From contig OX387191.1 of assembly GCA_947561395.2 (NCBI GenBank), positions 34,985,439 to 35,049,438 of the forward strand: a stretch of DNA of 64,000 bases, written 5' to 3'. The DNA comes from Buxus sempervirens (taxonomy: Eukaryota; Streptophyta; Magnoliopsida; Buxales; Buxaceae). The position numbers and the translations under genes were made by a program. Below are positions 11,738-53,977 of the stretch, piece by piece. A model generated the notes under the pieces. That model was not told where the DNA came from. It made no database searches and worked only from the letters and a program-made list of their open reading frames with translations. How positions within the stretch are numbered: the first letter of the stretch is position 1; each line of letters opens with the position of its first letter.

Positions 11738-11738
11738 T

Positions 11739-19602: not shown

Positions 19603-19710
19603 GGTAGTGTAGACACCCCAAATTGCACTACCAAATGAGAAAATAATAAAAACATGTAATTAGAGCTTAAAACAGGTCAAAAAGGCCTAAAAATAGAATG
19701 AACAGGCTTT

Positions 19711-19814
19711 GCCCGTATTGGCTTCACGGGCCGGTCTCGCCCGCAAAATATCTACGGGCAGGCGCGCCCGTAGTACTAATACGGTCACCATTGGACCGTA
19801 AATCATTTACGGGC
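19711..19814. promoter_or_regulatory. Half-site array in the 5' LTR of G
   Basis: Eight 7-bp half-sites alternate in orientation: GCCCGTA 19711, CACGGGC 19725, GCCCGCA 19739, TACGGGC 19753, GCCCGTA 19766, TACGGTC 19780, GACCGTA 19794 and TACGGGC 19808. Steps are 14,14,14,13,14,14,14. Spacers are unrelated in sequence. The array is about 190 bp upstream of the TATA box and is repeated in the 3' LTR (39234-39337). Confidence 0.8.
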
Positions 19815-20004
19815 ATTAAAGACACGTGCAAGTTTTGTCCTCCTCTCGATTTCCGAGCTTTATTTGAAGTCCAATATATCTTTAAACGAGCGAATTAAGT
19901 ATTTTATTCGCTGAAGCCACTATGGATGGGCATTATCTCTATATTTCACTCTATCCTGAGGATCAGGATATATCCTTCTGGACCAGCCTTGCCCCTGGGT
20001 GTGT

Positions 20005-20012
20005 CTATAAAT
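20005..20012 (+). promoter_or_regulatory. TATA box of the G 5' LTR
   Basis: TATAAATA in GTGTCTATAAATAGAGG. The copy in the 3' LTR is at 39528-39535, and LTR A has the same box. A transcription start about 30 bp downstream would put the splice-donor sequence roughly 75-80 bp into the transcript. Confidence 0.8.
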
Positions 20013-21255
20013 AGAGGCTCATTCCTCTAGCTTAAGGCCACGAAATTTTGAAGTCAAAGAAGTACAAGGAACTCCAAGAGAAGAACTCCTGCTGCTCTGC
20101 CTGCTCAATCCAGGTAAGTCCCCTACCCCTTTTATTTTCTGTCTTCAATTCTAGAAGTAATAGGATCATCTCTATTGCGGTAGACTAAGGCCATATCTGT
20201 TTTTGTATTCCTAAACCTATCTCTAAGTACCTCAAGGGTCTCTCTAGCCGTAAAACGTGAAGAGAGAACTAGGGGAAAAGAGAACAGGTGGATCCGTAGG
20301 GTAGACCCCCATGTGCTCTAATCTGTGAGATGTGGCTATTTTAAATATCCTGATCATGTTTTAATGCTTTTTATGATATATCTGAATGAATAACATGAAT
20401 CTATGATGTTTATAGCATGAGATCCCCACTTTTTGATAAAATTTGGATTTTTGCCACTTTTGCACCTACAGCACTGTTTTCATGATTTTTGTGGTTTTAG
20501 GCTAGAATCTTGGATTTATCATGATCAATATGGTAGATCTGAATCTAGAAGCCTGAAAGTAAATTCTAGGGTTTCATGAAATTGTTTTTAAATTGTTTTT
20601 CATTATTGAGAGAAGACCCTACGGTCTAAATTCTCCCCTTTTGGTGTTTTTCATCAACGTGGGTATTTTTGGTTTTTATTTTCAGATTTAATGTGAAATT
20701 TGGGCTTTATCTATGTCCTGGACTGTTCAAGTTAAATTTTGAAATATTTTATAAAAATCATATTTTTCCAGATTTCTAGAATTTGACTTGAAGCCAGATT
20801 TTTGGATTTTTCACTTTAAATTGATTTTATTTGATTTTATCTTGATTTTGTGTTGATCATGAAACCCTAGGCATGGTATGATCATATTTGATAGTTCTGG
20901 ATCAATCAGACTATTCATATGAAAAAACCATATATTTTGCCTTTTTTGTGATTTTGTGTGATTTTCATAGCAAGCTTTTTCCTTTATTTTTAACATGAAC
21001 AATACCTGGCAACCACCTTGTGTGGATGAATAGGGGTGCTTAACACCTTCCCCTGTTCATAACCTAATCCCCTTACCCATCTCTGGTTGTTTTTTTTAGG
21101 AGGGATATTTTGCCCTAAAAATTGCCTTTTGTGCTTATTTAATATTTTGGTGTCCATTCACACCTAAATTGGATGGTGGCGACTCTTTGTTTAATATAAT
21201 CCCGCGTGATGATTGAGGAAATCATTTAGATCGATTTTTTCCCATGTCTCACAAC

Positions 21256-21273
21256 TGGCGACTCTGCTGGGGA
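21256..21273 (+). other. Primer-binding site of element G
   Basis: TGGCGACTCTGCTGGGGA starts two bases after the 5' LTR and has the TGG start and 18-base length of a tRNA 3'-end complement. Tat/Ogre elements typically use an arginine tRNA, but I cannot confirm the tRNA identity by eye. Element X has a close relative (TGGCAACTCCGCTGGGGA on the minus strand). Confidence 0.85.
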
Positions 21274-22478
21274 CTTGTGGATTTAAGCCTTTTTGGTGTT
21301 TGTTCATGTTTTGATTTTTGATTTGCTTGCTATTTTGTGTTCTTAAGCATGTTGAATATGTTTTAAATCTGAATTATTGCTTAAGAATTCATGGGGGTAG
21401 AAACATGCTTAATTTTGATTTATAGGATTGTTTCTACAAACATGCGTAGGGGAGGTCCGTTTTGCTGAACCATGCTTATTTCTTGCTATATTTTTATGAT
21501 AGCATGTTTTAATTTTCAGCATGATCTCCATGATGATTTTGGGTGTATAACATGATCATATGTTTGCATGATAGATGATTTTTTTTATGAGCATGTTTTG
21601 GGTGCTATAGGATTGCTTTATTTACTTGTTTATTTTAAATATGCTTTCCTATTATGCCTTGGTTTGTTTATGCATGGCTGCGAAAAGAGTGGCAAGGGTT
21701 TGGGACGTTGTGAATGTGACCTATTTTTACAATGCACTGTGCACCTTTTATTTTTTTTTACACAGCCTACCCTTAACCTATAGGAAGTTGAACCCGAATG
21801 TGTGTAACTTGGCGCAACGAGGTCGATACTTCGGAAAGCGAAAGTGAAAACATTCACCTTAGAACTTTGAGCTAATGATGTGATGATAATGTGGATCTGG
21901 GATTCTGGTCATCACTAGGCTTGAGTGCTAAGTTGCCATTAAGCCAAAACCCAAAACCCCTACGCTTGAAGGTGGAGTTACACATTTTTGGCTAAATTAC
22001 ACAATTACGTGGGAATATGGGGTTTGTATGATTGTGGGAAGGCCGTATGCATGGCTTACAAACCAGGGCATAATGCGGATGCTATATTCAAGGTAAACAA
22101 GGTAACAAGGTAATCCTATTGTTTTGCATTATTTTCATATCATAGGGGTGTCATGGTACCCATGGGTTTGGGATAAAATTGGTCCCAAAATATGCATATT
22201 TGCTAAAAGTTGGTGCAGCCCATAGGAAGAGTTTCTAACTCTGTTTAGAATCAATCCTACCCTATGTACACACAAGAGGCAACAAAAGGGTATCAAATTC
22301 TTGAGTATGATGTCAATTTGGAGGGTACATGTGCCCTCCCTAGCATGTGTTTTACAAATAGGCCAAAGTCCACTTTGGGACAGTTTAGAAGCTCTGTACT
22401 GGGTGAACCGTACGTTTGGATGAGCAATTAAAGTGATCAAACCACTAAAAACTGGAAAAATATAACAGGGTTCCGTAA
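21274..22478 (+). other. Upstream leader of element G, no gene recognised
   Basis: About 1.2 kb with no recognisable protein. Some Ogre elements have a gene before gag, but nothing here looks like one. A minus-strand frame at 22135-22557 has no domain I know and runs into the half-site array, so I do not call it. Confidence 0.5.
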
Positions 22479-22611
22479 AACCGCATTTAGTACACGGGCT
22501 GGGCTTGCCCGTACTGGTTATACGGGCTAGGCTCGCCCGTGGATTGCATACGGTCACGGCAGGCTCGTAATTTGAATACGGGCACGACTGGACCGTAATG
22601 TGTATACGGTT
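22479..22611. promoter_or_regulatory. Half-site array in the G leader
   Basis: Nine clear half-sites start at 22493 (CACGGGC), 22507 (GCCCGTA), 22521 (TACGGGC), 22535 (GCCCGTG), 22549 (TACGGTC), 22563 (GCTCGTA), 22577 (TACGGGC), 22591 (GACCGTA) and 22605 (TACGGTT). All steps are exactly 14 bp. A weak tenth (AACCGCA) at 22479 keeps the grid. No TATA box is evident nearby, so the target promoter, if any, is unclear. Confidence 0.75.
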
Positions 22612-22707
22612 TTCTCGGAATATTCAACTTTAATCAGTTTTTCCCACTAAAATATTCTTTTAACCTTTAAATAATGATAAAGGGGAACAAGTTTGAATAA
22701 AATGCTT

Positions 22708-22785
22708 CAAAAAAAAAAACACAAAAAAAAAAAAAAAACAAAAAAAAAAAAAAAAAAAAAACAAACAAACAAACAAAATAATTAA
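22708..22785. repeat. Poly-A / A-C low-complexity tract
   Basis: Runs of A interrupted by single C, then a CAAA microsatellite. It may represent slippage. No tail-like context or target duplication suggests a LINE or SINE insertion. Confidence 0.9.
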
Positions 22786-22814
22786 AAGAAAAAATGTGAG
22801 AGAAAGGTTCCTTG

Positions 22815-23605
22815 GGCTTCTGAAAGCCTTTGAATTTCAGACTTTTTCAAAACTCTTGGGCCTCTGAAAGCCTTTGAATTTCAGATTTTTCAAAAAATCC
22901 TGGGCCTCTGAAAGCCTTTGAATTTCAGACTTTTTCTCAAAAAACCCCGGGCCTCTGAAAGCCTTTGAATTTCAGACTTTTTCTCAAAAAACTCCCGGCC
23001 TCTGAAAGCCTTTGAATTTCAGAACTTTTGGGCCTCTGAAAGCCTTTGAATTTCAGACCTTTTCCTTTTGGGCCTCTGAAAGCCTTTGAATTTCAGAACT
23101 TTTGGGCCTCTGAAAGCCTTTGAATTTCAGACCTTTTCCTTTTGGGCCTCTGAAAGCCTTTGAATTTCAGAACTTTTGGGCCTCTGAAAGCCTTTGAATT
23201 TCAGACCTTTTTCTTTTGGGCCTCTGAAAGCCTTTGAATTTCAGAACTTTTGGGCCTCTGAAAGCCTCTGAATTTCAGACCTTTTTCTTTTGGGCCTCTG
23301 AAAGCCTTTGAATTTCAGAACTTTTGGGCCTCTGAAAGCCTTTGAATTTCAGTCCTTTTTCTTTTGGGCCTCTGAAAGCCTTTGAATTTCAGAACTTTTG
23401 GGCCTCTGAAAGCCTTTGAATTTCAGACCTTTTTCTTTTGGGCCTCTGAAAGCCTTTGAATTTCAGAACTTTTGGGCCTCTGAAAGCCTTTGAATTTCAG
23501 ACTTTTTAAAAAAAAAAAAACCTGGGCCTCTGAAAACCTTTGAATTTCAGACTTTTATCAAAAATCCCCGGGCCTCTGAAAGCCTTTGAATTTCAGACCT
23601 TTCTC
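22815..23605. repeat. Minisatellite of about 20 hairpin units in the G leader
   Basis: About twenty units share GGGCCTCTGAAAGCC followed by TTTGAATTTCAGA. Each unit holds the inverted arms TCTGAAA and TTTCAGA separated by nine bases, so each can fold as a small hairpin. In the middle, units of about 34 bp (ending AGAACTTTT) alternate with units of about 40 bp (ending AGACCTTTTTCTTTT), giving a period of about 74 bp. Outer units are more irregular. The arms and loops are almost invariant; the linkers vary. Confidence 0.9.
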
Positions 23606-23859
23606 TCTTTTGTGGGACCTGTTGGAAGCCCTAGAATATTCCAACAATTCAATTCAAAATAAAAAAAAAATAAATAAAAAAAAAAGAAGCAAATAAAAAA
23701 AAAAAAAAAATCCAAACTCGTGTTCACCCAGCTCGCACATAGGCATACCTAGACATGTGAATGAGATTAAATTGGCACTGATATTTTTCCTTTATCTTTT
23801 CACCAGGTACTAATACACTCGCAATCATAGCTCCTGTAACCAGATCAAGAGCTCGAGCC

Positions 23860-26205
23860 ATGAATCCCATTGAAGATGAAGTTGATGCTCCTCATCCAGA
23901 TGTCGTTCTACTCCAAGAACAAGTGGCAGGACTGGCCCGAATGCTAGAGAACATACTGTCAGTACAGGCCCAACAAGTGCAGGCCCAACAAATGCAGGCC
24001 CAGAACCAGGCATCCACATCCAACCCTGCACCTCCACCCCAAGTCAATGTTCCACCTCCAGTGCAACCAACTCCTGAACCCGTCTATGAACCCACCCCTG
24101 AACCTATACTAACCAGGGATGAGACAGCTGAATCAAACAAGGCTAAGGAAAAGGAAAGGATAAGGGAAGAGGTTGAAAGAAAGTTCATGCATAAGCTAGA
24201 AATGATCCAGGATGAACTAAGGGAAGTCAAAGGGGTAAACAACTTTGGAGGCACCAATTTTGAAGACCTGTGTCTATACCCCAATGTTAACCTGCCGGCC
24301 AAGTTTAAGTGCCCAGACTTGGACAAGTATGATGGCACTGGTTGCCCCATGAGCCACCTAAAGTTATACTGTGGTGCCCTATGCCAGTTCGGGCAGGATG
24401 AGGGTATCTTGATCCAACTTTTCCAAAGGAGCCTAACAGGAACCGCATTAAGATGGTTCGCCACTCTGGACCATGGGAAGATCAAAAGATGGAAGGACCT
24501 AGCCGATGCCTTCCTGGCTCAATACCGGTTCAATTCAGAAATCATGCCAGATAGGTACGACGTCATGAGAATGAGCAAAGGAAGGGAGGAGACTGTAAGG
24601 CAATATGCCAAGAGATGGAGGGAGACGGCCTCCCAGGTCAGGCCACCCATGCTAGAACAGGAAATGATTTCTACCTTCATAAGCACTTTGGGTCAACCAT
24701 TCTACAGCCACTTGGTGGGTCAGACCACCACTAATTTTGCAGCTTTGGTTCAGGTGGCTGACCGAATTGAGGATGGAATAAGGTCAGGTAAGATAATTGA
24801 CCACTCTGCCATGGTTAGCCAGCAGGACCCCAACCTAAAGAAAGGAAGCGGGACAAAAAAGAATGGGAACAAGAAGGAGGGTGAGGTAAACATGGTACAG
24901 CCACCATCTGGCCCTAACAAGCCCATACAAATCAACGTACCTGCTCATTTTCCTACTCCATCTCCACCTACTCAGGCCCCTATGAGGGTTAATGTTCCAA
25001 CAGCACCTTCAGACCAAAAAAGGGTTTTTACCAAAGAGGAAAAGGACGCCTATTTTGCAGCAAGGAGAAATAGGGTTTTCACCCCTATTCCAATGACTCC
25101 CTCTCAATTGCTGCCCACTTTATTGCAAGGAGGGTATATCACCTTAAGAGAACCTAATCCGAATGCATCTAAGGGGAGAAATTTTGACCCCTCCACCACT
25201 TGTGATTACCATATGGGTGCACCTGGGCACCCTACAGACAAGTGCTGGCCTTTGAAACATGCCATTCAGGACTTACTAGACCAGAATACCTTGTCTTTCA
25301 ATACGGGGGCTTCCAATCCTCCAAGAACCGATATTGGACAAAACCCACTGCCCCAGCATCACGGGGCAGGCCCATCTAATGTCATAGGAGTCATCTCTTC
25401 TGACAAAATAACCTTTGACCCATCTCAATTAATTGCTCCCATAGGGACAACGGTCAAAGTATATTTTGACAGGAGAAGTGAAGGCAAAGAGATAAATATG
25501 ATTTCAAAGGGGAATGATAGTGCTGCAAAGAACATTAGCTCATCTTTGGACCGGGTCTCATCCCTCATGGCCCAGATGAACATCACCAAGCCACCCTTGG
25601 TCATTAATTGCCATTCATCCACTTTTACTCCGCCCATTCAGTCTAAGCCACCATTGGTCATAAATTGTGACCCCCTTAGTGCATCAGTCCCTTTTGCAAC
25701 CCCTCAACCAAAACAACTACCTCCATTGGTTGTTAATGTTCCTATTACTCAGACTTCCATCGCCAAGCCCAAACTTCCCCCATTGGTGGTGAATGTCCCC
25801 AAGCCTTCCTACTCTGAATCGGCTGTACCATGGAACTACAGTGAGGCATTTACCACTACATGCCCTGCAGTTGAAAGCAAGGAAGAAGTAAATCTCATGA
25901 TGAGGTCAGGAAAGTGTGTAGGGGTGGAAGAAAAACAGAAAGAAACAGAGAAGGATAAAGAAGAAGAAAGAAATAAAGGCAAGGCCAAAGTAGGGGAAGA
26001 GGCCCCTCAGGTAACTAACAGTGAGGCTGCTGACCTCATTAAGGTAATAAAAAAGAGTGAGTTCAATGTCATTGAGCAGTTGAACAAGGTCCCTGCCCAG
26101 ATCTCAATTCTGGGATTATTGTTAAATTCAGAAAAACATAGGGACTCCTTGTTAAGGATACTTCAGGGGGCCATGTGCCTAAAAACATTGAACCAGACCA
26201 ACTAG
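23860..26205 (+). CDS. gag: Element G gag
   Basis: A 781-residue capsid-type protein of the Tat lineage. The N-terminus is Q/P-rich (repeated QAQQ), then helical and charged. The retrotransposon gag core follows at about residues 165-300, with FQRSLTGTALRWFATLD and VRQYAKRWRETASQV. A CCHC-like knuckle (CDYHMGAPGHPTDKCW) starts near residue 448, and proline-rich repeats containing PPLVVNVP follow. The chosen start is the first Met after the acceptor-like sequence; upstream in-frame alternatives were not evaluated. Pol opens in another frame shortly before gag ends, a read-through or frameshift arrangement common in retroelements. No break was noticed. Confidence 0.88.
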   Translation: MNPIEDEVDAPHPDVVLLQEQVAGLARMLENILSVQAQQVQAQQMQAQNQASTSNPAPPPQVNVPPPVQPTPEPVYEPTPEPILTRDETAESNKAKEKERIREEVERKFMHKLEMIQDELREVKGVNNFGGTNFEDLCLYPNVNLPAKFKCPDLDKYDGTGCPMSHLKLYCGALCQFGQDEGILIQLFQRSLTGTALRWFATLDHGKIKRWKDLADAFLAQYRFNSEIMPDRYDVMRMSKGREETVRQYAKRWRETASQVRPPMLEQEMISTFISTLGQPFYSHLVGQTTTNFAALVQVADRIEDGIRSGKIIDHSAMVSQQDPNLKKGSGTKKNGNKKEGEVNMVQPPSGPNKPIQINVPAHFPTPSPPTQAPMRVNVPTAPSDQKRVFTKEEKDAYFAARRNRVFTPIPMTPSQLLPTLLQGGYITLREPNPNASKGRNFDPSTTCDYHMGAPGHPTDKCWPLKHAIQDLLDQNTLSFNTGASNPPRTDIGQNPLPQHHGAGPSNVIGVISSDKITFDPSQLIAPIGTTVKVYFDRRSEGKEINMISKGNDSAAKNISSSLDRVSSLMAQMNITKPPLVINCHSSTFTPPIQSKPPLVINCDPLSASVPFATPQPKQLPPLVVNVPITQTSIAKPKLPPLVVNVPKPSYSESAVPWNYSEAFTTTCPAVESKEEVNLMMRSGKCVGVEEKQKETEKDKEEERNKGKAKVGEEAPQVTNSEAADLIKVIKKSEFNVIEQLNKVPAQISILGLLLNSEKHRDSLLRILQGAMCLKTLNQTN

Positions 26206-29200
26206 GCCGGATGGTTGGTCAAATATTATCCCATAATGTCATAACCTTTTCTGAAACTGAAATTAGTCCAGCAGGATACCATCATGTGGATCCTTTGCAT
26301 ATTGCTGTGCTCAGTAAAGGCTGCATGATAGCCCGGGTCTTGATTGATAATGGGTCAGCCCTCAATGTCTGCCCATTAGTAACCTTTGTTAAGCTCAATC
26401 TGGAGCGAAACAAAATAAAACAAAACGGAAGAATTATAAGAGCATTTGACAGCTCTAAAACACACTCCCTAGGGGAGGTTGAACTGCCGGTCACAATTGG
26501 ACCGTATATTTTCAACATCACATTTGAAGTGATGGATATACCTGCGGCTTTCAACCTACTCCTAGGAAGGCCGTGGATTCATACGGCTAGGGCCATACCA
26601 TCTACCCTCCACCAAAGAGTCAAGTACATTAGAGGGCAAAAGGTGATTACCGTCCTGGCCGAAAACTTGGTTCCCCCCATGTGGTCCCCTGATGTACCCT
26701 GTATTAACACGGAAATGACAGCAGATAAAATGGCGTTTCACTCTTTTCAATTTGAAGCTGTGAATTATATACCTGGGGGGTATCAGCAAAAAGAAGGAAA
26801 ATTGACCTGTGCTGAAAAAATGGTCAAAAATGTATTAGAAAAGTACCATTTTCATCCTGGAAAAGGTCTGGGGGTTAACCTACAAGGAAGGATAGAACCA
26901 ATACAGGTCAAGAAGATGGTTCACAGAGCAGGATTGGGGTCTAAGCCAAGGAAATGGAAAAGTCAGGGGCAGATAGAAGCTATGAAATTCCCGCACATCA
27001 GGGAAACTTTTCCTAAGCTGTCTCACATGATTCAGCTGTCTCCTCCTGAGGATCAGTCTAAACCTCCATACTACAATGTCAACCCATTCCAGAAACCCAA
27101 ACCCTCCACAATACAACCATATGTTCCACCTCCACCTCCACAAGCATCTGGTGGGCCTGGGCCACAGACAGAACAGAGGCAGGATTTTTCTGAGGACATA
27201 GGGGCATTCTTTGCCATGACAGAAGGCAACCAAGAAAAAGTAGCAGAGGAGCTACCTTTTATTGATTGGGCCGCAGTAGAAGTTCCATCGGGAACTGGCC
27301 CTACCGAAGAAGCAGGCAATGCAACTCACCCAGTACTGGTGATTTCTGATGCAGACCATGAGCTCGAGGAGCAGGATTGTATCCCTGCCCCAGATTCTTT
27401 CATTTTGAATAATTGGGAGGAAACTCCCCTTACTTTTGAAGCCGCGTTTGTTTGGCAAACAGACATGGCTTCCAAAAAAAAAACTCCATTAGTGGAATGC
27501 CCTTTTCCTGAAGGTTTTAATGAGCCTTCGTCTTCAGGGAAAGATTTTGTAGAAGGCTCTCAAATAACACAAAAAGATTTTTCAGTTTTTTCTAGAAAAG
27601 ATAAAATTTTCAAAAGGGTCCAAACCATTTATGAACCATATAAGCAAACGGAATTGGATCAGGATGAGTATGACTTCGACCTTGAGCTCGACTTTGACCT
27701 AATGGGGGTTGAAGAAGAGACCGAGGACGAAGAAAACGACGTTCCAATAGAAATCACATATCAATTAGAGCGTCATGAAAAGGGGGTCCAACCCAATATC
27801 GAAGAGACCATATCAATCAACCTAGGGACCGAAGATGACCCAAAAATAGTGAAGATTGAGGTATGTCTATCTGAGGTACAGCGGGATGAAATGATACGAT
27901 TTTTGGCTGATTATGAAGATGTGTTTGCATGGTCGTATCGGGATATGCCGGGGTTAGACACAGATATGGTGGTGCACAGGCTACCCATTCTACCAGACTC
28001 TAAGCCAGTTAAGCAGAAACTGAGAAGGTTAAAACCTGAGTGGACATTGAAGGTTAAAGATGAAGTGGTTAAACAATTCCAAGCCGGATTCTTAGCAGTT
28101 TCCACATACCCCGAATGGCTTGCAAATATAGTGCCAGTGCCAAAGAAGGATGGGAAGGTCAGAATGTGCGTAGATTATAGAGATTTGAATAAGGCAAGTC
28201 CAAAGGATGATTTTCCACTTCCACACATAGACATCCTGGTGGATAACACCGCTGTACATAGTCTATTCTCATTCATGGATGGGTTTTCTGGGTATAATCA
28301 GATTAAGATGGCTAAGGAAGACCAAGAGAAGACGGCCTTTATCACCCCTTGGGGTACCTTCCACTACACTGTCATGCCATTTGGACTTAAGAATGCTGGG
28401 GCAACCTACCAGAGGGCCATGACAGCCTTATTCCATGATATGATCCATAAGGAGATGGAGGTTTATGTGGATGATATGATAGCCAAATCATGTGAGGAAG
28501 AAGACCACTTGATCAACTTGAAGAAGGTATTTGACCGACTTAGGAAATACAGTCTAAGGCTTAACCCTGCTAAGTGTGTCTTTGGGGCTACATCAGGAAA
28601 ATTATTGGGTTTTATAGTAAGCAGAAGGGGAATTGAGATTGACCCAGCTAAAGCTAAAGCCATCATTGAAATGCCATCACCTAGAACCGAGAGGGAAGTT
28701 CGGGGTTTTCTTGGGAGGATTCAGTACATAAGCCGGTTCATAGCACAGCTCACCGCTATCTGTGAACCAATTTTCAAACTTTTAAGAAAGAATAACCCGA
28801 CAGTCTGGAATGATGATTGCCAAGAAGCCTTTGACACAATAAAGGAGTATTTATTGAACCCACCTGTGCTAGTACCACCCACTCCAGGAAGGCCATTAAT
28901 CCTATACTTGTCAGTTTTGGAAACATCAATGGGGTGTGTCTTAGGACAGCATGACGATACAGGCAGAAAGGAGAGGGCGATTTACTACCTGAGTAAGAAA
29001 TTTACAGAATATGAAGCAAAGTACTCTCCATTAGAAAAGACTTGTTGTGCTTTAGTATGGGCAACTCAGAGACTAAGGCACTATTTCCTTAGTCATTCCA
29101 CCTTATTGATATCCCGAATGGACCCTTTGAAGTATCTATTTGAGAAACCAGCTTTAACTGGCAGAACAGCAAAGTGGCAGTTGTTGCTCTCTGAATTTGA

Positions 29201-31079
29201 CCTCACCTATATCACACAAAAGGCCATTAAGGGTCAAGCCATTGCAGATCACTTGGCTGCACACCCTTTACCAGAATACCAACCCTTAAAGACCAACTTC
29301 CCTGATGAGGCAATCCTGTTTGCTGAAGAGGAAGAAGGTGAAAGCTCATGGCAAATGTTTTTTGATGGGGCCGCCAATATGAATGGAAATGGAATAGGGG
29401 CTGTATTGATCAAGCCAGATGGGGCACATATCCCGATCGCAGTGAAGTTAAGGTTCCAATGCACGAACAATATAGCAGAGTATGAAGCATGCATAATTGG
29501 GTTACAAGCAGCCTTAGATCATGAAGTAGAGGAACTTGACGTATATGGGGATTCGAGTCTTATCATCTTCCAAACAACTGGTGAATGGAAAACCAAGGAT
29601 CACAAATTGATCCCCTATCACCAGTATTTGGAAGAAATAAGCAATAAATTTACTCGAATTTCCTTCAATTATATGCCAAGGGCCAAAAACCAGTTTGCAG
29701 ATGCTTTAGCAACATTGGCTTCAATGGTCAGTATGCCAGAAGGGGTTGATATTAGACCATTAGAAATTGAAGTCAGAGATGAACCAGCCTACTGCCTTGT
29801 TCTAGAAGAAACCCCAGAAGAAGAAGTACCATGGTTTCAAGACATTAAGAACTTCCTAAATGATCGGAGCTTACCAGAAAATGTCACCTCTACAGAGAAA
29901 AGAACAATACAGAGGCTGGCAGGACAGTTCTTACTAAGTGGTGGGCAGTTGTACAAAAGATCACACAATGATATACTACTTAGATGTGTTGCAAAAACCG
30001 AATCAGAAAGGATAGTGGAAACCGTACATGGAGGAGTGTGTGGACCCCATATGAATGGGCATATGCTTGCCAAGAAGATTCTGCGATTGGGATATTACTG
30101 GTCGACTATGGAGCATGATTGCTATATGCACGTTAAAAGGTGTCATTTATGCCAAGTGTACGCGGATAACAAGAATGCACCCCCAAGTGAATTACACAGT
30201 ATGACATCCCCGTGGCCTTTTTCTATGTGGGGTATAGATGTCATTGGAATGATCTCTCCAAAGGCATCAAATGGACATAGATTTATACTCGTAGCAATTG
30301 ATTACTTCACTAAGTGGGTAGAAGCGGCTTCTTATGCAAACATTACGAGTAGCCATGTTCTTAAGTTTTTGAAGCACAACATCATTTGCCGCTATGGTTT
30401 GCCAAGTGCCATAGTAACAGACAATGCTTCAAACCTTAAGAACAAAGACATGAGGAAGATGTGTGAACAATTTCAGATTACCCACCACAAGTCAGCGCCT
30501 TACAGACCAAAGATGAATGGGGCAGTGGAAGCAGCAAATAAGAATATAAAGAAGATTATTCAAAAGATGGTAGTGAGTTTTAAAGATTGGCATGAAATGC
30601 TGCCACTTGCTCTACATGCTTACAGAACCTCAATTCGGACTTCTACAGGGGCAACCCCATACTCCTTAGTCTATGGAATGGAAGCAGTTTTACCAGTGGA
30701 AGTGGAAATACCTTCACTAAGAGTGCTAATGGAAGCAGAATTAGAAGAAGCTGAATGGATACAGTCTAGACATGATCAACTCAATTTAATTGAAGAAAAG
30801 CGTTTGAAGGCACTTAGTCATGGCCAAATATATCGGAAGAGGATGGCTAGGGCTTACAATAAAAAGGTGAAGCCCAGAACCTTCCAAGAAGGAAATTTGG
30901 TATTAAAGAAGATTTTACCCTTTTTGGAAGATCCTCGTGGAAAGTTCAAACCAAATTGGGAAGGACCTTATGTGGTCAAGAAAGTTCTATCAGGGGGTGC
31001 TCTCATCTTAACAGAAATGGATGGGAAGGATTTTCCTGAGCCAATTAACTCTGATGCAGTAAAGAGATATTTTCCATGA
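26175..31079 (+). CDS. pol: Element G pol
   Basis: A 1634-residue open frame. Protease comes first (VLIDNGSALNV near residue 52, LLLGRPWI near 130). A glycine-rich G-patch-like stretch (GKGLGVNLQGRIEPI) lies near 235. Reverse transcriptase has MCVDYRDLNKASPKDDF near 660 and YVDDMIAKS near 763. A retroviral-type RNase H covers about 900-1020. A second archaeal-type RNase H starts near 1058 (MFFDGAANMNGNGIGAVLI; ADALATLASM near 1175). Integrase has a zinc-binding region near 1285-1330 and catalytic acidic residues in WGIDVIG, VTDNASN and GAVEAANK (about 1354-1451). The dual RNase H is the Tat-lineage signature. Confidence 0.93.
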   Translation: MPKNIEPDQLGRMVGQILSHNVITFSETEISPAGYHHVDPLHIAVLSKGCMIARVLIDNGSALNVCPLVTFVKLNLERNKIKQNGRIIRAFDSSKTHSLGEVELPVTIGPYIFNITFEVMDIPAAFNLLLGRPWIHTARAIPSTLHQRVKYIRGQKVITVLAENLVPPMWSPDVPCINTEMTADKMAFHSFQFEAVNYIPGGYQQKEGKLTCAEKMVKNVLEKYHFHPGKGLGVNLQGRIEPIQVKKMVHRAGLGSKPRKWKSQGQIEAMKFPHIRETFPKLSHMIQLSPPEDQSKPPYYNVNPFQKPKPSTIQPYVPPPPPQASGGPGPQTEQRQDFSEDIGAFFAMTEGNQEKVAEELPFIDWAAVEVPSGTGPTEEAGNATHPVLVISDADHELEEQDCIPAPDSFILNNWEETPLTFEAAFVWQTDMASKKKTPLVECPFPEGFNEPSSSGKDFVEGSQITQKDFSVFSRKDKIFKRVQTIYEPYKQTELDQDEYDFDLELDFDLMGVEEETEDEENDVPIEITYQLERHEKGVQPNIEETISINLGTEDDPKIVKIEVCLSEVQRDEMIRFLADYEDVFAWSYRDMPGLDTDMVVHRLPILPDSKPVKQKLRRLKPEWTLKVKDEVVKQFQAGFLAVSTYPEWLANIVPVPKKDGKVRMCVDYRDLNKASPKDDFPLPHIDILVDNTAVHSLFSFMDGFSGYNQIKMAKEDQEKTAFITPWGTFHYTVMPFGLKNAGATYQRAMTALFHDMIHKEMEVYVDDMIAKSCEEEDHLINLKKVFDRLRKYSLRLNPAKCVFGATSGKLLGFIVSRRGIEIDPAKAKAIIEMPSPRTEREVRGFLGRIQYISRFIAQLTAICEPIFKLLRKNNPTVWNDDCQEAFDTIKEYLLNPPVLVPPTPGRPLILYLSVLETSMGCVLGQHDDTGRKERAIYYLSKKFTEYEAKYSPLEKTCCALVWATQRLRHYFLSHSTLLISRMDPLKYLFEKPALTGRTAKWQLLLSEFDLTYITQKAIKGQAIADHLAAHPLPEYQPLKTNFPDEAILFAEEEEGESSWQMFFDGAANMNGNGIGAVLIKPDGAHIPIAVKLRFQCTNNIAEYEACIIGLQAALDHEVEELDVYGDSSLIIFQTTGEWKTKDHKLIPYHQYLEEISNKFTRISFNYMPRAKNQFADALATLASMVSMPEGVDIRPLEIEVRDEPAYCLVLEETPEEEVPWFQDIKNFLNDRSLPENVTSTEKRTIQRLAGQFLLSGGQLYKRSHNDILLRCVAKTESERIVETVHGGVCGPHMNGHMLAKKILRLGYYWSTMEHDCYMHVKRCHLCQVYADNKNAPPSELHSMTSPWPFSMWGIDVIGMISPKASNGHRFILVAIDYFTKWVEAASYANITSSHVLKFLKHNIICRYGLPSAIVTDNASNLKNKDMRKMCEQFQITHHKSAPYRPKMNGAVEAANKNIKKIIQKMVVSFKDWHEMLPLALHAYRTSIRTSTGATPYSLVYGMEAVLPVEVEIPSLRVLMEAELEEAEWIQSRHDQLNLIEEKRLKALSHGQIYRKRMARAYNKKVKPRTFQEGNLVLKKILPFLEDPRGKFKPNWEGPYVVKKVLSGGALILTEMDGKDFPEPINSDAVKRYFP

Positions 31080-32090: not shown

Positions 32091-33941
32091 CTAATCCCTA
32101 CTCCCTAACTGCTCCTCAAGCTCCCTAATCCTAGCTGCCTGAGTTGCAATGATTCCAGAAGCACCCTCTGCATCAGGATCACTCAAAAAGGAGATGACCT
32201 CATCTGAAAAGGAAAGCTTGATCTTCAACGTCCTAAGGTCAGCCAAGGAATCCTGATACTTCTTCCGCATCACACGGACTTCAAAGCGACGAGCCTGCCT
32301 TTGTTCTTCAAGTTTCTTCTCCATGGCAATGCAGCCAGACCTCTGCTCTTCAAGCTTCCTCTCCAGAACAAGGACTTTTATCCTAAGATCTTGAGCCTCC
32401 CGTACCCATATTTGTTGAAGCCGCTTATGGGTTGCCCTTTCTGACTCCAGAATGTCCTCATAAGTAGGAGGAAGAACTGCAGGAGGATCCTCTGGTACTG
32501 GGGCATGACTCTGCACCTGTTCCTTGATCCAGAAGTGATAGTCCTTCACATGGGACTCAGAAAAGACTGGACCCCGCAGAAAGCAAACATAGGACCACTC
32601 TTTCATTAATTGAGCATTTAGCCCCATGGTGGCTGAGGTAAGTGGCCCTATAAAGCTCTCATAACCTGTGGGAATCATAATTCCTTGGGTCGCTCCAAAT
32701 TGCCGAAGAACCCTCAAAGGAAGATAGAGAACGGCAGATTTCAAGCCTGCTAGGGCCAGAAAATTTTTATCCCTAAAGCTAATCACTGTCTCCGGAGTAG
32801 GCTGATAAGTGCCAGGCCATCTCACTTGATCATCCTGGAGAGTACCCAAGAAAGTGAACCAGCCTTGCTTGCCACCTTGGATGTTAGGACATCCCCTATT
32901 GCTCATCAAAACAGGAACTTTCAATCTTGGAAAGAAGCGGCGAGTTATTTCTTCTACCTGGCTAAGATGGTCAAGCAACCAAAGCTGCAGAAAAAGGGAG
33001 TATTTTAATTTATTTCCAAAAAGAAAAAAAAAAGAAAAAGAAAAAAAAAAGAAAAAAGGAAGAAGAAGAAAAAAAAAGAAAAAAAAAAAAAAGAGAGAAG
33101 AAGAAAAAAAAAAAAAGAAAAAAGAAAGGAAAGGAAGAATAGAAAAAAAAAAAAAATAGAAAAAAAAAATACATGCATATTTTACCTGTAGGATAGGGGC
33201 GCAGGCAAGGAAGCGTTTCTTCTTCCTGAAATAACAATCAGTAAGAGCCTGATATATCTCTGCTAGGATCATAGGGGCCAACCTCTCGCGTTCCCTAACC
33301 TGACAGATAACTGAGATGAGAGCCAAGTCAACCTGGTCATCACCCCGTGGAAAAAGCAGCTGATTGACCACTATCAGGGTCAATGCATTAAACCTAGAGT
33401 CCTTGTCATTACTCCTCAGAAGTTTTTCAGTCAAAAAGGTCTTGGACAAGGTCAATAGTGCATCAGAATTTCCTAAGTCCTTCTTCCCTATACCCAAGAA
33501 AGTGGAAGCCTCCTTTTTATAACTAAGCTTTAGGGGTGGGTTCACAACTTTTTTAGAAAATCTAAGGCCAAGGATGGTTCCAATCTCTTCTATGGTAGGA
33601 GTCATCTCTTTATCATCAAAACGGAAGAGATTCAGCTCAGGTACCCAATGGCCTATCAAAGCTTCAATGATTTCCCACTTAAAGGGAATTTTAGGGAGGT
33701 GTAGGATGTGCCCTAAGTGGATGGAATCCCAACGAATCTCCTCATCAAGGGTCATGGAGTTAACCCATCTATCATAAAAGGAATCCACAATATTGTACCT
33801 GGTAAGATTAGGAGGTTTTGATCTAACAGGTTGTCTTGCAGGAGGAGATTCAACGGCAGGAGAAAGCGGCGTAGGGGAAGCCATGGAAGCGCCAAAGAAG
33901 CCAAGGAAAGCGAGAAAAGACGTGCTCAGGGAGTTTTCCAA
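32091..33941 (-). CDS. Antisense gene 2 of element G, DUF7745-like with coiled-coil tail
   Basis: The minus-strand frame is open over 616 codons. It starts MENSLSTS at 33941, but Met-20 (MASPTPLSPA, 33884) is the likelier start because a TATA box lies only about 35 bp before 33941. The N-terminal half (WEIIEALIGHWVPELNLFRF, then PTIEEIGTILGL) resembles the plant DUF7745/mobile-domain-type proteins known from Tat-lineage antisense genes. A pyrimidine-rich 201-bp segment (32985-33185) has GT and AG ends and looks like an intron; its length is a multiple of three and it holds no stop, so the frame stays open either way. The C-terminus is a charged coiled coil. Function is unknown. Confidence 0.7.
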   Translation of the reverse strand: MENSLSTSFLAFLGFFGASMASPTPLSPAVESPPARQPVRSKPPNLTRYNIVDSFYDRWVNSMTLDEEIRWDSIHLGHILHLPKIPFKWEIIEALIGHWVPELNLFRFDDKEMTPTIEEIGTILGLRFSKKVVNPPLKLSYKKEASTFLGIGKKDLGNSDALLTLSKTFLTEKLLRSNDKDSRFNALTLIVVNQLLFPRGDDQVDLALISVICQVRERERLAPMILAEIYQALTDCYFRKKKRFLACAPILQVKYACIFFFYFFFFSILPFLSFFFFFFSSSLFFFFFFFFLLLPFFFFFSFSFFFLFGNKLKYSLFLQLWLLDHLSQVEEITRRFFPRLKVPVLMSNRGCPNIQGGKQGWFTFLGTLQDDQVRWPGTYQPTPETVISFRDKNFLALAGLKSAVLYLPLRVLRQFGATQGIMIPTGYESFIGPLTSATMGLNAQLMKEWSYVCFLRGPVFSESHVKDYHFWIKEQVQSHAPVPEDPPAVLPPTYEDILESERATHKRLQQIWVREAQDLRIKVLVLERKLEEQRSGCIAMEKKLEEQRQARRFEVRVMRKKYQDSLADLRTLKIKLSFSDEVISFLSDPDAEGASGIIATQAARIRELEEQLGSRD

Positions 33942-33975
33942 TCAATAAAAGTGTCACAATGACGTTCCCTAGGAG

Positions 33976-34137
33976 TTTATATAGAAAAAATCGCAAGGCA
34001 GTAAATTCCGTAATTATATTACGGGCAAGGCGCGCCCGTATAGGTATTACGGACACGCCTGACCGTGAAAACTTCACGGGCAAGGTACGCCCGTAGAAAT
34101 TTTACGGGCACCGCTTGCTCGTAGTATAAATACGGTT
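33976..34137 (-). promoter_or_regulatory. Promoter of antisense gene 2 with half-site array
   Basis: A minus-strand TATA box (CTATATAAA, 33976-33984) is preceded on that strand by ten alternating half-sites. They start at 34006 (TTCCGTA), 34020 (TACGGGC), 34034 (GCCCGTA), 34048 (TACGGAC), 34061 (GACCGTG), 34075 (CACGGGC), 34089 (GCCCGTA), 34103 (TACGGGC), 34117 (GCTCGTA) and 34131 (TACGGTT). Steps are 14 except a single 13 between the fourth and fifth. The nearest half-site is only about 20 bp from the TATA box. Confidence 0.75.
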
Positions 34138-34339
34138 CCTTCGAAAAAATGCAAAAAAATGGGAATTTTTAATTTCCTTTGTTTCCCTAAGCTTCACCTG
34201 TCCCTGTTTAACATTCATGAGGTAATAAATACTATAAATAAAGAAGAAAGAACACAAATGGAAATAAATCAAACTTCTTTTATATACATGAATGTTTACA
34301 TCACTTTTACCAAAAAAATACAAGTGTATATGAATAATC

Positions 34340-37218
34340 CTAATCTAATGACCATGCAGGTCCGACCCTACTGCCACGGCCTCGTCCTCTGCTTCGTCCT
34401 CGGCCTGAAGATCGCCTGCGCTCAAAGACATGCCGCACCACATTGCGGGCTGTGCTACGCGGCATCCTGCTCAAAACAGACTGAACATCATGCCACATAT
34501 ATAAAGGTACAAGGCCAGCAGTAGGATGATCAGGAGGGACATACCCTGAAGTATCTACATCAGAATCAGTACGGGAAGACTCCTCTGACGTATCCACAGC
34601 AGCATGTGTCTCCTCGATATCCTCCATAGTAGGACTAGCAGGGGCAGAGGTCTCAGGTACATCAGCATCAACCCCAGGCTCTACAGGATCAGCTGTAGCC
34701 TCCGCCATCACCGCAGTCTCCACGGTAGGCTCTACCACAGCGGCGTCCACAGCCGAATCCATATCAACATCAGCAGATGTAGCAGGAGCCGTCTCAGCTA
34801 CTGGGGCAGACTCTGGCACGTCCTCAGTAGCAGGTACAATATCAGCCTCGACCTCGGGCTCTGCTGCAGGAACCTCCACTGGACTAGGAGACGTCACGAA
34901 CTCCACCCGTGCCACAGAAAACACCTCATCCCGGAAATGCATAGGCACGGGTGAAGCAGGTGAAGAGGGACCAGCTGTGTACTCCTGAAACTAAGAGAAA
35001 AATTCAATCAGAACAAGATAGGCTAATACAAAAGCAGGAATGGAAATAAAAATAAAAAAAGAAAAAGAAATTAACCTGAGTATCAGACGGACCCGCCTGG
35101 TCCTGTGCATCAGATGGACCCTCCTGGCCCTGGGCTCTGGCTAGCTGCCCCCGGAGATCGGAAATAGTGATATAGAGGGCGTCCCGCTCAGCGATCGTTG
35201 CGTCACGCTGGCGCTCTAGATCAGCATAGCGAGACCAGATCTCTGCCAACTGAGCCTCCTGAAATAGAGAAGAAAGAAGTCAGAAAAATGCTAAGGACAG
35301 ATGAAATAGAAATAGAAGATCACAAAAGAAGAAAGCATACCGTGGTGTCGTAGGCCCTAATCACTACCCCTCCTATCTCCGTGACTCCGCCACGGACAGG
35401 CATGGGTGACATGAGGCACCCAACAGAAGATCGCCTGAACCATGCATCATAGTCACCCTCCTCCAATAATGTCTCTGCCCCAGTCCAATCTAAGAACTGG
35501 GCAGGATCAACAGGCATAGGAGGATAGAGAGGAGTAGTATCTGGCGGAATGGCAGGAATCCGTGGCTCTCCCACATGCTGAAAGAAGAAGCGCTCGCCGC
35601 AATACCAGATGCTGCCCAACTGACCAATAAAGAACTGGTATCTCTGTCGTCTCTGGTCAGGGACAAATGCATCATCTCTCGCAGCCTGCAGGGCCAGCAC
35701 CTCATGAATGTCCTCCATCCTGGGGACAAATAGCTGAAAAACAGAACAAGACATCAGATATGCGAGTCCAGGAAGAAAAAAAAAGAAGAAAGTAGAGAAA
35801 TTAAAGAAGATTACCTCAGACCGATACAACCTGTCCAAGTGGGCCCGGGCGGACCTGGGACGACTCTTTTCAGAGTCGTGCTCTACATGACACCATCTGA
35901 GTGCCATGGGATACGTCTCCTCAGGCATCGTAGAGGTAGGGCGGAAATAGGGTATATAAACCCTAGCAAAAAACTACAAAAATAAGAAAAGAGTTAGAGG
36001 AATAGAAAATGAGAGATAAGGAAAAGAGAAAGAGAGAAAAAAGAAAAGAAATAAACATTTCACCTGCAAGAAGGGCCAGAAGAACCTGCACCCAACTCCA
36101 GCCCCTCTGGAAGTAGAGAGGCCACTCACTGATCGGCGCAGGCCAGCCAGAATAGTACCAAATATGAGTGGGCCCCAGGCATACCTCCTCGCCCGCTGCA
36201 AATCTCCCAGAAGACTCAAGAAGTGAGGACTAACTGAAGTCGTGTCCTCTGGGAAGAAGCAGGATCCCATCATATACAGAAAAAGAAATCGGAAGGCGAA
36301 GGGGAACACATGGTCACCGGCAGCAAGTTGGCCAAACTGCCTCCTCCCGAAAGTCTCTCTCAGCCATGTCAGAGACAATCTAGCTCTCCCCCGATCCCAT
36401 GCCTCAGGAGGCAGCACAATATATCCAAGATAACCAGCAATCTCATCGGCCTCTGGCATCGCCATCTCAGTGATAACATCACCGATCATCCTAATCCCGG
36501 TGATGAGCGTGAAATCAGAAGGCCGGATCCCAATCTCAACATCTGGGAAGTGGAAGCTCAAGGTCTCTGGGAAAAACCTCTCCAATAATGCTGCAATGAG
36601 GGCTCGATCCAAGCGAACGTCCGGGATGGTGATAAACATGCCGAAACCGTATAATCCTAGCTCCCGACGATAGGCCGAACTGCAAGCTCTCAAGAATCTA
36701 GTAAAGCTGGCCCAACTCCCTCTATAATGGGACATAGCAAAATCCAAAGGGATATCCGCCCTAACGCAAGCTGAAGGATGAGTCCTCAAACCATGCAGAA
36801 GATCAGTGTCCCTAATCTGGGCAGCCACCTCCTCAGGGATCTCAACCCTGGTCCTGGCCTCATCTCTGCCACGGCCCCCTCTGCGGCCTCCTCTATGACC
36901 CTCATCAAGGTCTCTATCTACGCCTCCAGCTCTGCGTCTGCTACGGCTCCTATCTCTGCCGGAAGCCTCAACAATCGGCTAAAAGAAAATAATTGAAGAA
37001 TCAGGAAGATGTTTTTGTAAAAGAATGTTAAAATCTGAAGGGTTAGAGTATACCTCTGGGGTCGCCTCACGCGAATCCCCAGAAGGGAAATCTGGGATAT
37101 CAGAATCAGAATCCCTCTCGGTCCTCGAAGACGAGGCCACATCAGCAGGATCTCGCCTAACCCTCGAGGAGGAAGGCTCATCTGCAGGATCTCGGGAAGC
37201 CGATCTAAGGCGGGCCAT
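34340..37218 (-). CDS. Antisense gene 1 of element G, plant-mobile-domain-like, intron-containing
   Basis: Minus-strand open blocks are separated by short T-rich gaps with GT...AG ends, suggesting six exons: about 37218-37054, 36978-36064, 35972-35815, 35733-35341, 35258-35076 and 34984-34340. It opens MARLRSASRDPADEPSSS. The large second block has an R/G-rich lead and then a domain with LYGFGMFITIPDVRLDRALI, GIRPSDFTLITGI and RRYAWGPLIFGTILAGL, which resembles the plant mobile domain (PF10536-like). A short coiled coil (fifth block) follows. The last block is acidic, A/P/E-rich, and ends in an RGRSRGRGRG tail. Such antisense genes are known in Tat-lineage elements; their role is not established. 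Exon limits are by eye. Confidence 0.65.
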
Positions 37219-38675: not shown

Positions 38676-38779
38676 ATCCGTAAAATCAGTACGGGCATCA
38701 GACGCCCGTGAAAGCACTACGGTCCCGGTCGCCCGTGAACCCTCTACGGGCAGGGTCTGTCCGTAAGCCAAATACGGGC
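38676..38779 (-). promoter_or_regulatory. Half-site array upstream of the antisense unit near the G 3' LTR
   Basis: Eight alternating half-sites: ATCCGTA 38676, TACGGGC 38690, GCCCGTG 38704, TACGGTC 38718, GCCCGTG 38731, TACGGGC 38745, GTCCGTA 38759 and TACGGGC 38773. Steps are 14,14,14,13,14,14,14, the same pattern as the LTR array. On the minus strand it is followed by C/T-rich sequence like a plant TATA-less promoter, so it may serve antisense gene 1. Confidence 0.7.
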
Positions 38780-39113
38780 GAAGCCAAAATTGCATATTTT
38801 TATCATTTTCTCACAATTTTTAGGAGATTAATGTAGATATTAGTTGTAAGTTGCAAGGATTGCCATCTTACCCACTTTTGTTTAAAAATTTTGTCTCAAA
38901 TCTCACTTCATAGCCCACAAGTGCTCAGTGAGAAGAGAGAGGAAGATTTGGCCCTTAAGCTGAGGGATTACTTAGCAAATCTTCCACAATCAATTCTTTT
39001 TTTCGAAAATCAACCATTTTAATCCTTGCAAAGTGCAATTGATTATACAAAAATCTCAAAAAGTGCAATTGGCGGGTCTTTTTGCTCTCTGCTTATAATT
39101 GGTTCCAATTACC

Positions 39114-39130
39114 AGCAAAGAGGGGGCAGC
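39114..39130 (+). other. Polypurine tract of element G
   Basis: GCAAAGAGGGGGCAGC directly precedes the TG of the 3' LTR, as expected for plus-strand priming. Confidence 0.85.
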
Positions 39131-40776
39131 TGTAGACACCCCAAATTGCACTACCAAATGAGAAAATAATAAAAACATGTAATTAGAGCTTAAAACAGGT
39201 CAAAAAGGCCTAAAAATAGAATGAACAGGCTTTGCCCGTATTGGCTTCACGGGCCGGTCTCGCCCGCAAAATATCTACGGGCAGGCGTGCCCGTAGTACT
39301 AATACGGTCACCATTGGACCGTAAATCATTTACGGGCATTAAAGACACGTGCAAGTTTTGTCCTCCTCTCGATTTCCGAGCTTTATTTGAAGTCCAATAT
39401 ATCTTTAAACGAGCGAATTAAGTATTTTATTCGCTGAAGCCACTATGGATGGGCATTATCTCTATATTTCACTCTATCCTGAGGATCAGGATATATCCTT
39501 CTGGACCAGCCTTGCCCCTGGGTGTGTCTATAAATAGAGGCTCATTCCTCTAGCTTAAGGCCACGAAATTTTGAAGTCAAAGAAGTACAAGGAACTCCAA
39601 GAGAAGAACTCCTGCTGCTCTGCCTGCTCAATCCAGGTAAGTCCCCTACCCCTTTTATTTTCTGTCTTCAATTCTAGAAGTAATAGGATCATCTCTATTG
39701 CGGTAGACTAAGGCCATATCTGTTTTTGTATTCCTAAACCTATCTCTAAGTACCTCAAGGGTCTCTCTAGCCGTAAAACGTGAAGAGAGAACTAGGGGAA
39801 AAGAGAACAGGTGGATCCGTAGGGTAGACCCCCATGTGCTCTAATCTGTGAGATGTGGCTATTTTAAATATCCTGATCATGTTTTAATGCTTTTTATGAT
39901 ATATCTGAATGAATAACATGAATCTATGATGTTTATAGCATGAGATCCCCACTTTTTGATAAAATTTGGATTTTTGCCACTTTTGCACCTACAGCACTGT
40001 TTTCATGATTTTTGTGGTTTTAGGCTAGAATCTTGGATTTATCATGATCAATATGGTAGATCTGAATCTAGAAGCCTGAAAGTAAATTCTAGGGTTTCAT
40101 GAAATTGTTTTTAAATTGTTTTTCATTATTGAGAGAAGACCCTACGGTCTAAATTCTCCCCTTTTGGTGTTTTTCATCAACGTGGGTATTTTTGGTTTTT
40201 ATTTTCAGATTTAATGTGAAATTTGGGCTTTATCTATGTCCTGGACTGTTCAAGTTAAATTTTGAAATATTTTATAAAAATCATATTTTTCCAGATTTCT
40301 AGAATTTAACTTGAAGCCAGATTTTTGGATTTTTCACTTTAAATTGATTTTATTTGATTTTATCTTGATTTTGTGTTGATCATGAAACCCTAGGCATGGT
40401 ATGATCATATTTGATAGTTCTGGATCAATCAGACTATTCATATGAAAAAACCATATATTTTGCCTTTTTTGTGATTTTGTGTGATTTTCATAGCAAGCTT
40501 TTTCCTTTATTTTTAACATGAACAATACCTGGCAACCACCTTGTGTGGATGAATAGGGGTGCTTAACACCTTCCCCTGTTCATAACCTAATCCCCTTACC
40601 CATCTCTGGTTGTTTTTTTTAGGAGGGATATTTTGCCCTAAAAATTGCCTTTTGTGCTTATTTAATATTTTGGTGTCCATTCACACCTAAATTGGATGGT
40701 GGCGACTCTTTGTTTAATATAATCCCGCGTGATGATTGAGGAAATCATTTAGATTGATTTTTTCCCATGTCTCACA
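39131..40776 (+). repeat. 3' LTR of element G
   Basis: Same length (1646 bp) as the 5' LTR, with about three differences noted by eye. Half-site array at 39234-39337 and TATA box at 39528-39535. The target duplication GGTAG follows at 40777-40781, after which LTR Y resumes. Confidence 0.97.
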
Positions 40777-41278
40777 GGTAGGCCTCCGGATCGGATTTTA
40801 GCAGAAAGTCAACTTTTGGCTCTGCTCAAGTTTGACCGCCCGCAGAACCTTCATCCGGACCCCGATTCCTGCAAACTCAGTTGCGTTGGAATCGTGTCGA
40901 GATTCTCTATCCAATGATATAAAGCGAGGTACTTCGCACGGAATTCAAGGAAAAGTCAACTCTCGGCTTTTCCTTAAGTTTGACCGCCCGCCGAACCTTC
41001 ATCCGGACCCCGATTCCTGCAAACTCAGTTGCGTTGGAACCGTGTCGAGATTCTCTATCCAATGGCATAAAGAGAGGTGGCCAATTTTCACTTGATCAAA
41101 AAGTCAACTTTTCACCCCTTAGGGTTTGACTTTTTGTCCAGGTTTGTATTTTTGGTTTTTTTCGGGGAGCGCAAAAATGAGGTGCTTACATTGGTCTTGC
41201 TCTTTTTGCCCCAGTTGGACAGGCACAAATGGTTTTTGTTGTGGAGGATGAGTGGGAACTGCCGCCAGATGTGGGAAT

Positions 41279-53972: not shown

Positions 53973-53977
53973 GTAAG

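Follow-up and report, generated by a model that had tools for sequence, protein, structure and literature searches.

Element-encoded proteins that act on arrays of a short motif are known from plant DNA transposons. In Spm/En, the TnpA protein of the element acts on subterminal short-motif arrays near its own promoter. Among plant long terminal repeat (LTR) retrotransposons, a 13-bp element of Tto1 reportedly serves as a cis element of the LTR promoter. The VANDAL Mutator-like elements (MULEs) of Arabidopsis carry motif arrays in one orientation, to which the localisation and binding of VANC21 are reported both in vivo and by electrophoretic mobility shift assay (PMC5735166, PMC10398659). The antisense open reading frames (ORFs) of Retand elements are reported mostly to carry TRP28 (97% of clusters; PMC11963269). 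In Arabidopsis, plant mobile domain (PMD) proteins take part in gene silencing, and the accessible parts of the reports show no DNA target for them (PMC7156037, PMC9899485). The locus compared with these systems is element G, a retrotransposon of Buxus sempervirens lying in a 64,000-nucleotide stretch of contig OX387191.1 (positions 34,985,439 to 35,049,438, forward strand), which is called the window and in which coordinates are counted. A reading of the letters alone (the sequence-only reading) had pointed to arrays of two alternating half-sites in G, TACGGGC (F) and GCCCGTA (R). The best explanation of these arrays, which may be about as probably right as wrong when taken as a whole, is that they are promoter arrays for a dimeric transcription factor, with the element's own PMD protein as the leading candidate.

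With a chain finder that tolerates up to two mismatches per half-site, the following arrays are found in the window.

19711 to 19814, plus strand: array 1, in the U3 region of the 5' LTR, whose TATA box follows about 190 bp downstream; 8 half-sites, 4 of them exact
22479 to 22611, plus strand: array 2, the 5' leader array, between the 5' LTR and gag; 9 half-sites (22493-22611) and a degenerate first one
34006 to 34137, minus strand: array 3, in the promoter of antisense gene 1, ending 22 bp upstream of TATATAAA; 10 half-sites
38676 to 38779, minus strand: array 4, ahead of the pyrimidine-rich leader of antisense gene 2; 8 half-sites
39234 to 39337, plus strand: array 5, the 3' LTR copy of array 1; 8 half-sites
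1059 to 1163, plus strand: sixth array, in a G-related solo LTR whose match to the LTR runs from 957 to 2775; 8 half-sites

The first five stand where the sequence-only reading had placed them. As arrays 1 and 5 are LTR duplicates, G holds four distinct arrays. The total of 43 half-sites is also reproduced (8, 9, 10, 8 and 8), but only 18 are exact, so that calling them clear was generous, and the leftmost one claimed, AACCGCA at 22479, has three mismatches. Thirty dinucleotide shuffles of the window produced no chain scoring 10 or more, against scores of 18.8 to 24 for the six real chains, all of which lie outside ORFs of at least 200 amino acids. Opposite-orientation pairs of half-sites with at most one mismatch stand 14 bp apart 16 times from F to R and 20 times from R to F. 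Off this distance, there are three F-to-R pairs at 13 bp and, at each remaining distance between 8 and 40 bp, one pair at most. The solo LTR (957-2775) matches the LTR of G at 74-88% by piece and is flanked by TTCAG and GTCAG.

The arrays had been described in one retrotransposon; they recur in the solo LTR, occur genome-wide and in at least two families, and are not peculiar to G. The scan of the host genome that had been proposed for the motif gave 27,561 and 27,650 matches per strand (55,211 overlapping matches) to TACGGGC-N7-GCCCGTA-N7-TACGGGC with up to three mismatches, against 0 and 1 for the reversed control. Exact TACGGGC-N(0-30)-GCCCGTA is present at 7,962 places (121 for the reversed pattern) and exact GCCCGTA-N(0-30)-TACGGGC at 11,324 (89 reversed). 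Among the 50 matches listed for each pair, the first ones on contig C1, the spacer of the former is 7 bp in 48 and 6 bp in 2, and all 50 of the latter are 21 bp long with a 7-bp spacer.

The geometry was examined in the window and the fetched loci, on the 145 non-identical arrays that were left after removal of seven redundant loci and 13 arrays near stretch ends; copies of the same family are not independent. With a finder that allowed steps of 13 to 15 bp only, the R-to-F step is 14 bp in 544 of 544 cases, and the F-to-R step is 14 bp in 342 and 13 bp in 79. As one step never varies and the other does, GCCCGTA-N7-TACGGGC, A/T-rich at its centre, forms the rigid unit, and one base of play exists between units. 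The 14-bp grid described as strict is therefore strict within this dyad and slightly relaxed between dyads. An array begins with R and ends with F in 123 of the 145, and 18 of the other 22 are the 5' leader array, where degeneracy keeps the first half-site from being scored; arrays thus mostly contain whole numbers of dyad units. By arithmetic, 14 bp on a 10.5-bp helix correspond to 120 degrees, and three half-sites fill four turns.

The half-site logo, built from 158 half-sites of the window and the array-selected loci, reads TACGG(G/T)C, with frequencies of 0.90-0.98 at six of the seven positions and G at 0.72 and T at 0.21 at position 6. The spacers had been described as sharing no sequence, and in 30 arrays from the same sources their preferences are indeed weak; they are nevertheless present and symmetric, TTTNAAA-like in the R-to-F class and ANGSCNT-like in the other. 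The R-to-F spacers are A/T-rich, as had been noticed (GC content 0.198, against 0.574 in the other class).

Comparison of copies bears out the earlier view that half-sites were kept while spacers drifted: at the four distinct arrays, half-sites show 4.2-6.3-fold fewer changes, and half-sites mutating as fast as spacers, which the sequence-only reading had named as an outcome that would refute it, were not observed. Rates are parsimony changes per column on copy trees, with spacers given as classes A/B. At the gene 1 promoter array (40 rows), half-sites score 0.29, spacers 1.78/1.37 and flanks 0.63/0.47. The gene 2 promoter array (15 rows) gives 0.27, 1.40/1.89 and 1.24/0.63, so that its spacers exceed the faster flank only weakly, and the LTR array (20 rows) gives 0.27, 1.35/1.39 and 0.40/0.43. 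For the 5' leader array (21 rows) the values are 0.11, 0.29/0.64 and 0.25/0.17, its class A spacers being hardly above the flanks. The ratios of pooled spacers to half-sites are, in this order, 5.4, 6.3, 5.1 and 4.2, and the observed half-site count was reached by 0, 0, 0 and 18 of 20,000 label permutations. Shifting the grid by 1 to 13 bases gave more changes every time. One copy, L033, was left out of the gene 1 promoter rates and of the matched-row codon comparison (identity to G 0.775 over the stretch), as were six of the 20 gene 2 copies (four partial, two without a match) and one of the 20 LTR copies.

Half-sites are therefore constrained relative to their spacers. A functionless 28-bp tandem repeat in decay would account for the second-family arrays next to the TATA box, which have spacers in common and differ in length by whole multiples of 28 bp. 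However, the half-sites and spacers of one such repeat would decay alike, and they differ about 4-6-fold at the four family G arrays (pooled spacers). The rate comparison excludes simple decay of a repeat for family G, and as a general account it is scarcely credible.

On 20 matched rows of the gene 1 promoter, half-sites score 0.10, spacers 0.85/0.69 and flanks 0.21/0.19 (half-site versus spacer, p 8e-7); on the same rows, fourfold-degenerate codon sites score 0.27 and codon positions 1+2 0.065. Half-sites are indistinguishable from positions 1+2 (p 0.14). At this array, the only one so compared, the spacer rate is about 2.8 times that of fourfold-degenerate sites (p 4e-5). The gene 1 promoter spacers are thus unusually fast, for which selection, conversion between arrays and mutation are candidate causes. 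In the second family, rates for the six-site proximal array at 14 of 20 loci (half-sites 0.14, spacers 0.29/0.76, flanks 0.54/1.80; observed value reached in 287 of 20,000 permutations) come from a sample that is biased, because the loci were picked by exact motif matches. Its spacers are no faster than its flanks, so that spacer acceleration is shown for family G only: relative to fourfold-degenerate sites at the gene 1 promoter and relative to flanks at the four arrays, with the weak cases of gene 2 and of 5' leader class A noted above.

Adjacent half-sites are complementary, and a stem system of RNA or DNA had been offered as an alternative to a protein: RNA hairpins or DNA cruciforms of neighbouring half-sites would then be the selected feature. 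Matching variants in neighbours are slightly in excess (6 against 2.15 and 8 against 4.38 expected), which shared ancestry can explain. In adjacent half-sites, 11 mirror positions show variation on both sides across four copy alignments, with a complementary double change in one cell only. An alternative tally, in which 14 of 41 half-site deviations are mirrored, treats gaps as changes and includes one copy gapped at a mirror pair; it was not used. Array 3 precedes its gene's TATA box and, for this reason, presumably outside the transcript. Since changes are almost never compensated, stems are disfavoured as the main cause, and this explanation is very improbable; the half-sites seem to be read singly and not to be kept for pairing.

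The position of the arrays is best seen against the structure of G.

19608 to 21253, plus strand: 5' LTR, 1646 bp, with 3 substitutions relative to the 3' LTR and a TATA box, CTATAAATAG, near 20005
39131 to 40776, plus strand: 3' LTR, 1646 bp
19603 to 19607 and 40777 to 40781: target-site duplication GGTAG
23860 to 26205, plus strand: gag ORF
26175 to 31079, plus strand: pol ORF, with G-patch, reverse transcriptase, RNase H, RVT_3 (second RNase H) and integrase
32094 to 33884, minus strand: antisense gene 1, a DUF7745/PMD protein with a long C-terminal helix
34340 to 37218, minus strand: antisense gene 2, a PMD protein with its ATG at 37218 and the PMD exon at 35974-36828

G is a young, Tat-like Ty3/gypsy element. 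Its pol domains follow the Tat-like order RVT_1, RT_RNaseH, RVT_3, rve, and the minus strand between pol and the 3' LTR holds, as in Tat-like elements, four ORFs of at least 200 amino acids (32091-36828). TRP28 (PF04195), by which the Retand lineage was judged, is absent from these four ORFs (E up to 1). A dual RNase H is described for Tat elements, and PMD is already reported from plant Gypsy elements. The two antisense genes score 56.8 and 66.2 bits for Pfam PMD (cut-off 34.9), and gene 1 scores 90.4 for DUF7745 (cut-off 26). From its sequence, gene 1 probably has an in-frame GT-AG intron of 201 bp (33185-32985); further exons of gene 2 are probable at 35320-35928 and 34340-34948. The PMD-related gene of the second family lies in sense orientation and appears to be intronless, because its two matching pieces adjoin where G has the intron (L027). 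A sense copy without and an antisense gene with an intron would fit the idea that only antisense genes retain introns through the RNA intermediate. The flanks of G (19456-19596 and 40777-40917) match over 141 bp at 99.3%, which would fit insertion into a tandem repeat of about 140-148 bp. The stretch 22812-23609, between array 2 and gag, consists of tandem repeats of 46-47 and 74 bp (GGCCTCTGAAAGCCTTTGAATTTCAGA...).

The second family also shows a promoter position. At 20 of 20 loci, chosen from the exact genomic matches listed with preference for second-family spacers, a TATAAATA-type box lies 14-15 bp past the array end (its start, counted from the last array base, is 15 at 17 loci and 16 at three), and these TATA-proximal arrays contain 4, 6 or 8 half-sites. 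The loci are inferred to be LTRs from L009, with copies at both ends, and from L027/L028, with gag and pol downstream. In L149, L150 and L090, the distal and proximal arrays have a common inverted sequence, ACACGCGT / CGTACGG, between them. In the leader of antisense gene 2, which array 4 precedes, no TATA box was found.

PMD/DUF7745 genes are encoded in both families. In a DUF7745 protein search, 118 of 5,751 candidates were scored, and in both of the two stretches examined, arrays of 6 and of 4 half-sites precede the gene by about 3 kb, the nearer one by 3.0-3.1 kb, where L027/L028 predicted it. One of the two adjoins the right edge of the window; the other was picked on its protein match alone. 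Comparison of DUF7745 matches and arrays by coordinates on C1 was too sparse to use. Directly to the right of the window, a second-family LTR-like stretch (C14:35049500-35053926, L149) contains arrays of 4 and 6 half-sites and, 3.0 kb downstream, a 498-amino-acid DUF7745 frame; similarity to the second family begins near window position 63942.

The earlier idea of a cooperative protein on dyads is thus partly supported by half-site conservation, the rigid dyad, whole dyad numbers and a location mostly at promoters. The arrays would be promoter elements of a Tat-like Ty3/gypsy element, at which dimers of a DNA-binding protein would dock in rows. One dimer would sit on each 21-bp palindrome GCCCGTA-N7-TACGGGC, spanning its soft A/T-rich centre, and neighbouring dimers would be spaced 28 (or 27) bp apart, side by side, several being bound together near the TATA box. 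The bound protein would act in trans as an activator and would probably also shield the promoters from silencing. Its weakest step is the identity of the binder: that it is the PMD/DUF7745 product of the element, in the manner of VANC, is plausible but slightly doubtful. If so, the element would regulate itself. According to the structure prediction, the C-terminal helix of protein 1 (residues 501-550, predicted local distance difference test score, pLDDT, 70-87) could dimerise.

Several observations weigh against this explanation or its choice of binder. Half-sites are not significantly slower than fourfold-degenerate sites alone (p 0.18), and no TATA pattern was found within 300 bp of array 2. 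Both DUF7745-guided matches belong to one family, and the C14 match was also to be expected from LTR similarity at the window edge; they therefore confirm a family-wide linkage and not an independent association. A PMD match lies within 10 kb at only two of 10 array-selected loci. In six of the eight others, gag and pol matches are missing as well; L013/L014, however, contains gag and L019/L020 both gag and pol, in each case without a PMD match. Single-sequence structure prediction of PMD1 failed to give a fold (pLDDT 44.5). In PDB sequence searches at E up to 10, the PMD2 exon gave no match; PMD1 gave one, to a myosin (E 0.52), which is taken as chance. Finally, the motif is identical in two families although their PMD proteins are only about 30-37% identical, and such a constant motif beside diverged proteins also suits a constant host factor. 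In L013 (3935-6135) and L014 (1-191), a second-family-type array and gag are present with no PMD match between them; this copy is possibly dependent on PMD supplied by other copies.

A host factor is the serious rival, rather unlikely as we judge it, in which a dimeric host transcription factor binds the arrays as enhancers, like the U3 boxes of Tnt1, and the PMD proteins do something else. The unchanged motif, the arrays adjoining TATA boxes and the array-bearing L013/L014 and L019/L020 without a PMD match agree with it, but such arrays are not confined to the LTR TATA box, being found before antisense gene 1 and upstream of antisense gene 2 as well. We also know of no host factor with a 14-bp inverted array of TACGG(G/T)C, which counts against it. 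The BII boxes of Tnt1 are reported to bind defence-induced factors (PMC3316501). One family of host factors was considered by name. The SBP-box core is GTAC, which is often seen in second-family half-sites. In G, the base after a half-site is mostly A or T, so that this core is not common to both families, and an SBP-box binder was rejected.

The bound protein could also repress the element's promoters, so that the element would repress itself or control its copy number. Next to TATA boxes, a protein on the arrays could also block, and MAIN/MAIL1 of Arabidopsis are reported to act in silencing (PMC7156037, PMC5418596). Against such repression, half-site conservation in amplified copies suits sites that aid propagation; this argument is not strong, and repression is nonetheless improbable. 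The activating PMD protein can be carried one step further, to a retrotransposon counterpart of VANC: a spliced antisense PMD protein would dimerise on the phased dyads and keep promoters open, and the spacers would be driven past neutral divergence so that the small RNAs of one copy miss the arrays of another, because a 24-nucleotide guide on a 14-bp grid must cover a spacer. This extended version is unlikely.

The rest of the window contains other repeats. At 3013-12923, a repeat pair at 99% (3013-4196 and 11739-12923) surrounds split copia gag-pol ORFs, with a Transposase_32 ORF at 10545-11195 and no arrays. Another pair (95.7%) at 50549-63654, also free of arrays, surrounds a minus-strand gypsy protease-reverse transcriptase ORF (59997-61475). 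Positions 1-750 form a complex minisatellite with nested periods of 25, 66, 91, 158 and 325 bp.

An array of this kind was not found in the open-access literature searched, as far as its accessible text goes, in agreement with the earlier statement that Tat elements have no described equivalent, although functional cousins exist in the VANDAL/VANC arrays and the U3 enhancer boxes. In the accessible retrotransposon literature, TACGGGC was met in a satellite primer and a satellite monomer and not in an array. We know of no phased inverted dyads in plant U3 enhancer boxes. Like the BII boxes of Tnt1 (PMC3316501), the G array upstream of the LTR TATA box consists of short cis elements in an LTR promoter; the boxes are bound by host factors, and in G internal antisense genes are preceded by arrays as well. 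Retand elements share with G the Ty3/gypsy type and antisense ORFs between pol and the 3' LTR for which a regulatory role is proposed, but their tandem arrays are family-specific and mostly lie between pol and the 3' LTR, the accessible account proposes no target site, and their TRP28 is absent in G (PMC11963269). MAIN and MAIL1 resemble the antisense proteins in their PMD domain and their tie to a promoter motif and transposon silencing; the DOWN motif (CATGCAGTTT, as given for MORC1) is unlike TACGGGC (PMC7156037, PMC9899485).

If the proposed explanation is true, G would exemplify an LTR retrotransposon in which a phased, operator-like array stands at the sense promoter and also precedes the antisense genes. 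The 21-bp dyad, present at thousands of genomic places, is a directly testable substrate for the DNA target of PMD proteins and the role of Tat-like antisense genes. Spm/En differs from G in being a DNA transposon with another motif and layout. The nearest system in logic, by analogy, is VANC/VANDAL. In both, dense arrays of a short motif lie in the non-coding DNA of a family that encodes a regulator, shown for VANC and a candidate for PMD, and in VANDAL, too, the arrays are reported to evolve by tandem repetition and the target regions to diverge rapidly. VANDAL elements are DNA transposons of the MULE type and G is a retrotransposon with LTRs, gag, reverse transcriptase and integrase; VANC21 motifs lie in one orientation and those of G strictly alternate on the 14-bp grid. 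Binding is demonstrated for VANC21, and G is likened to it from its sequence.

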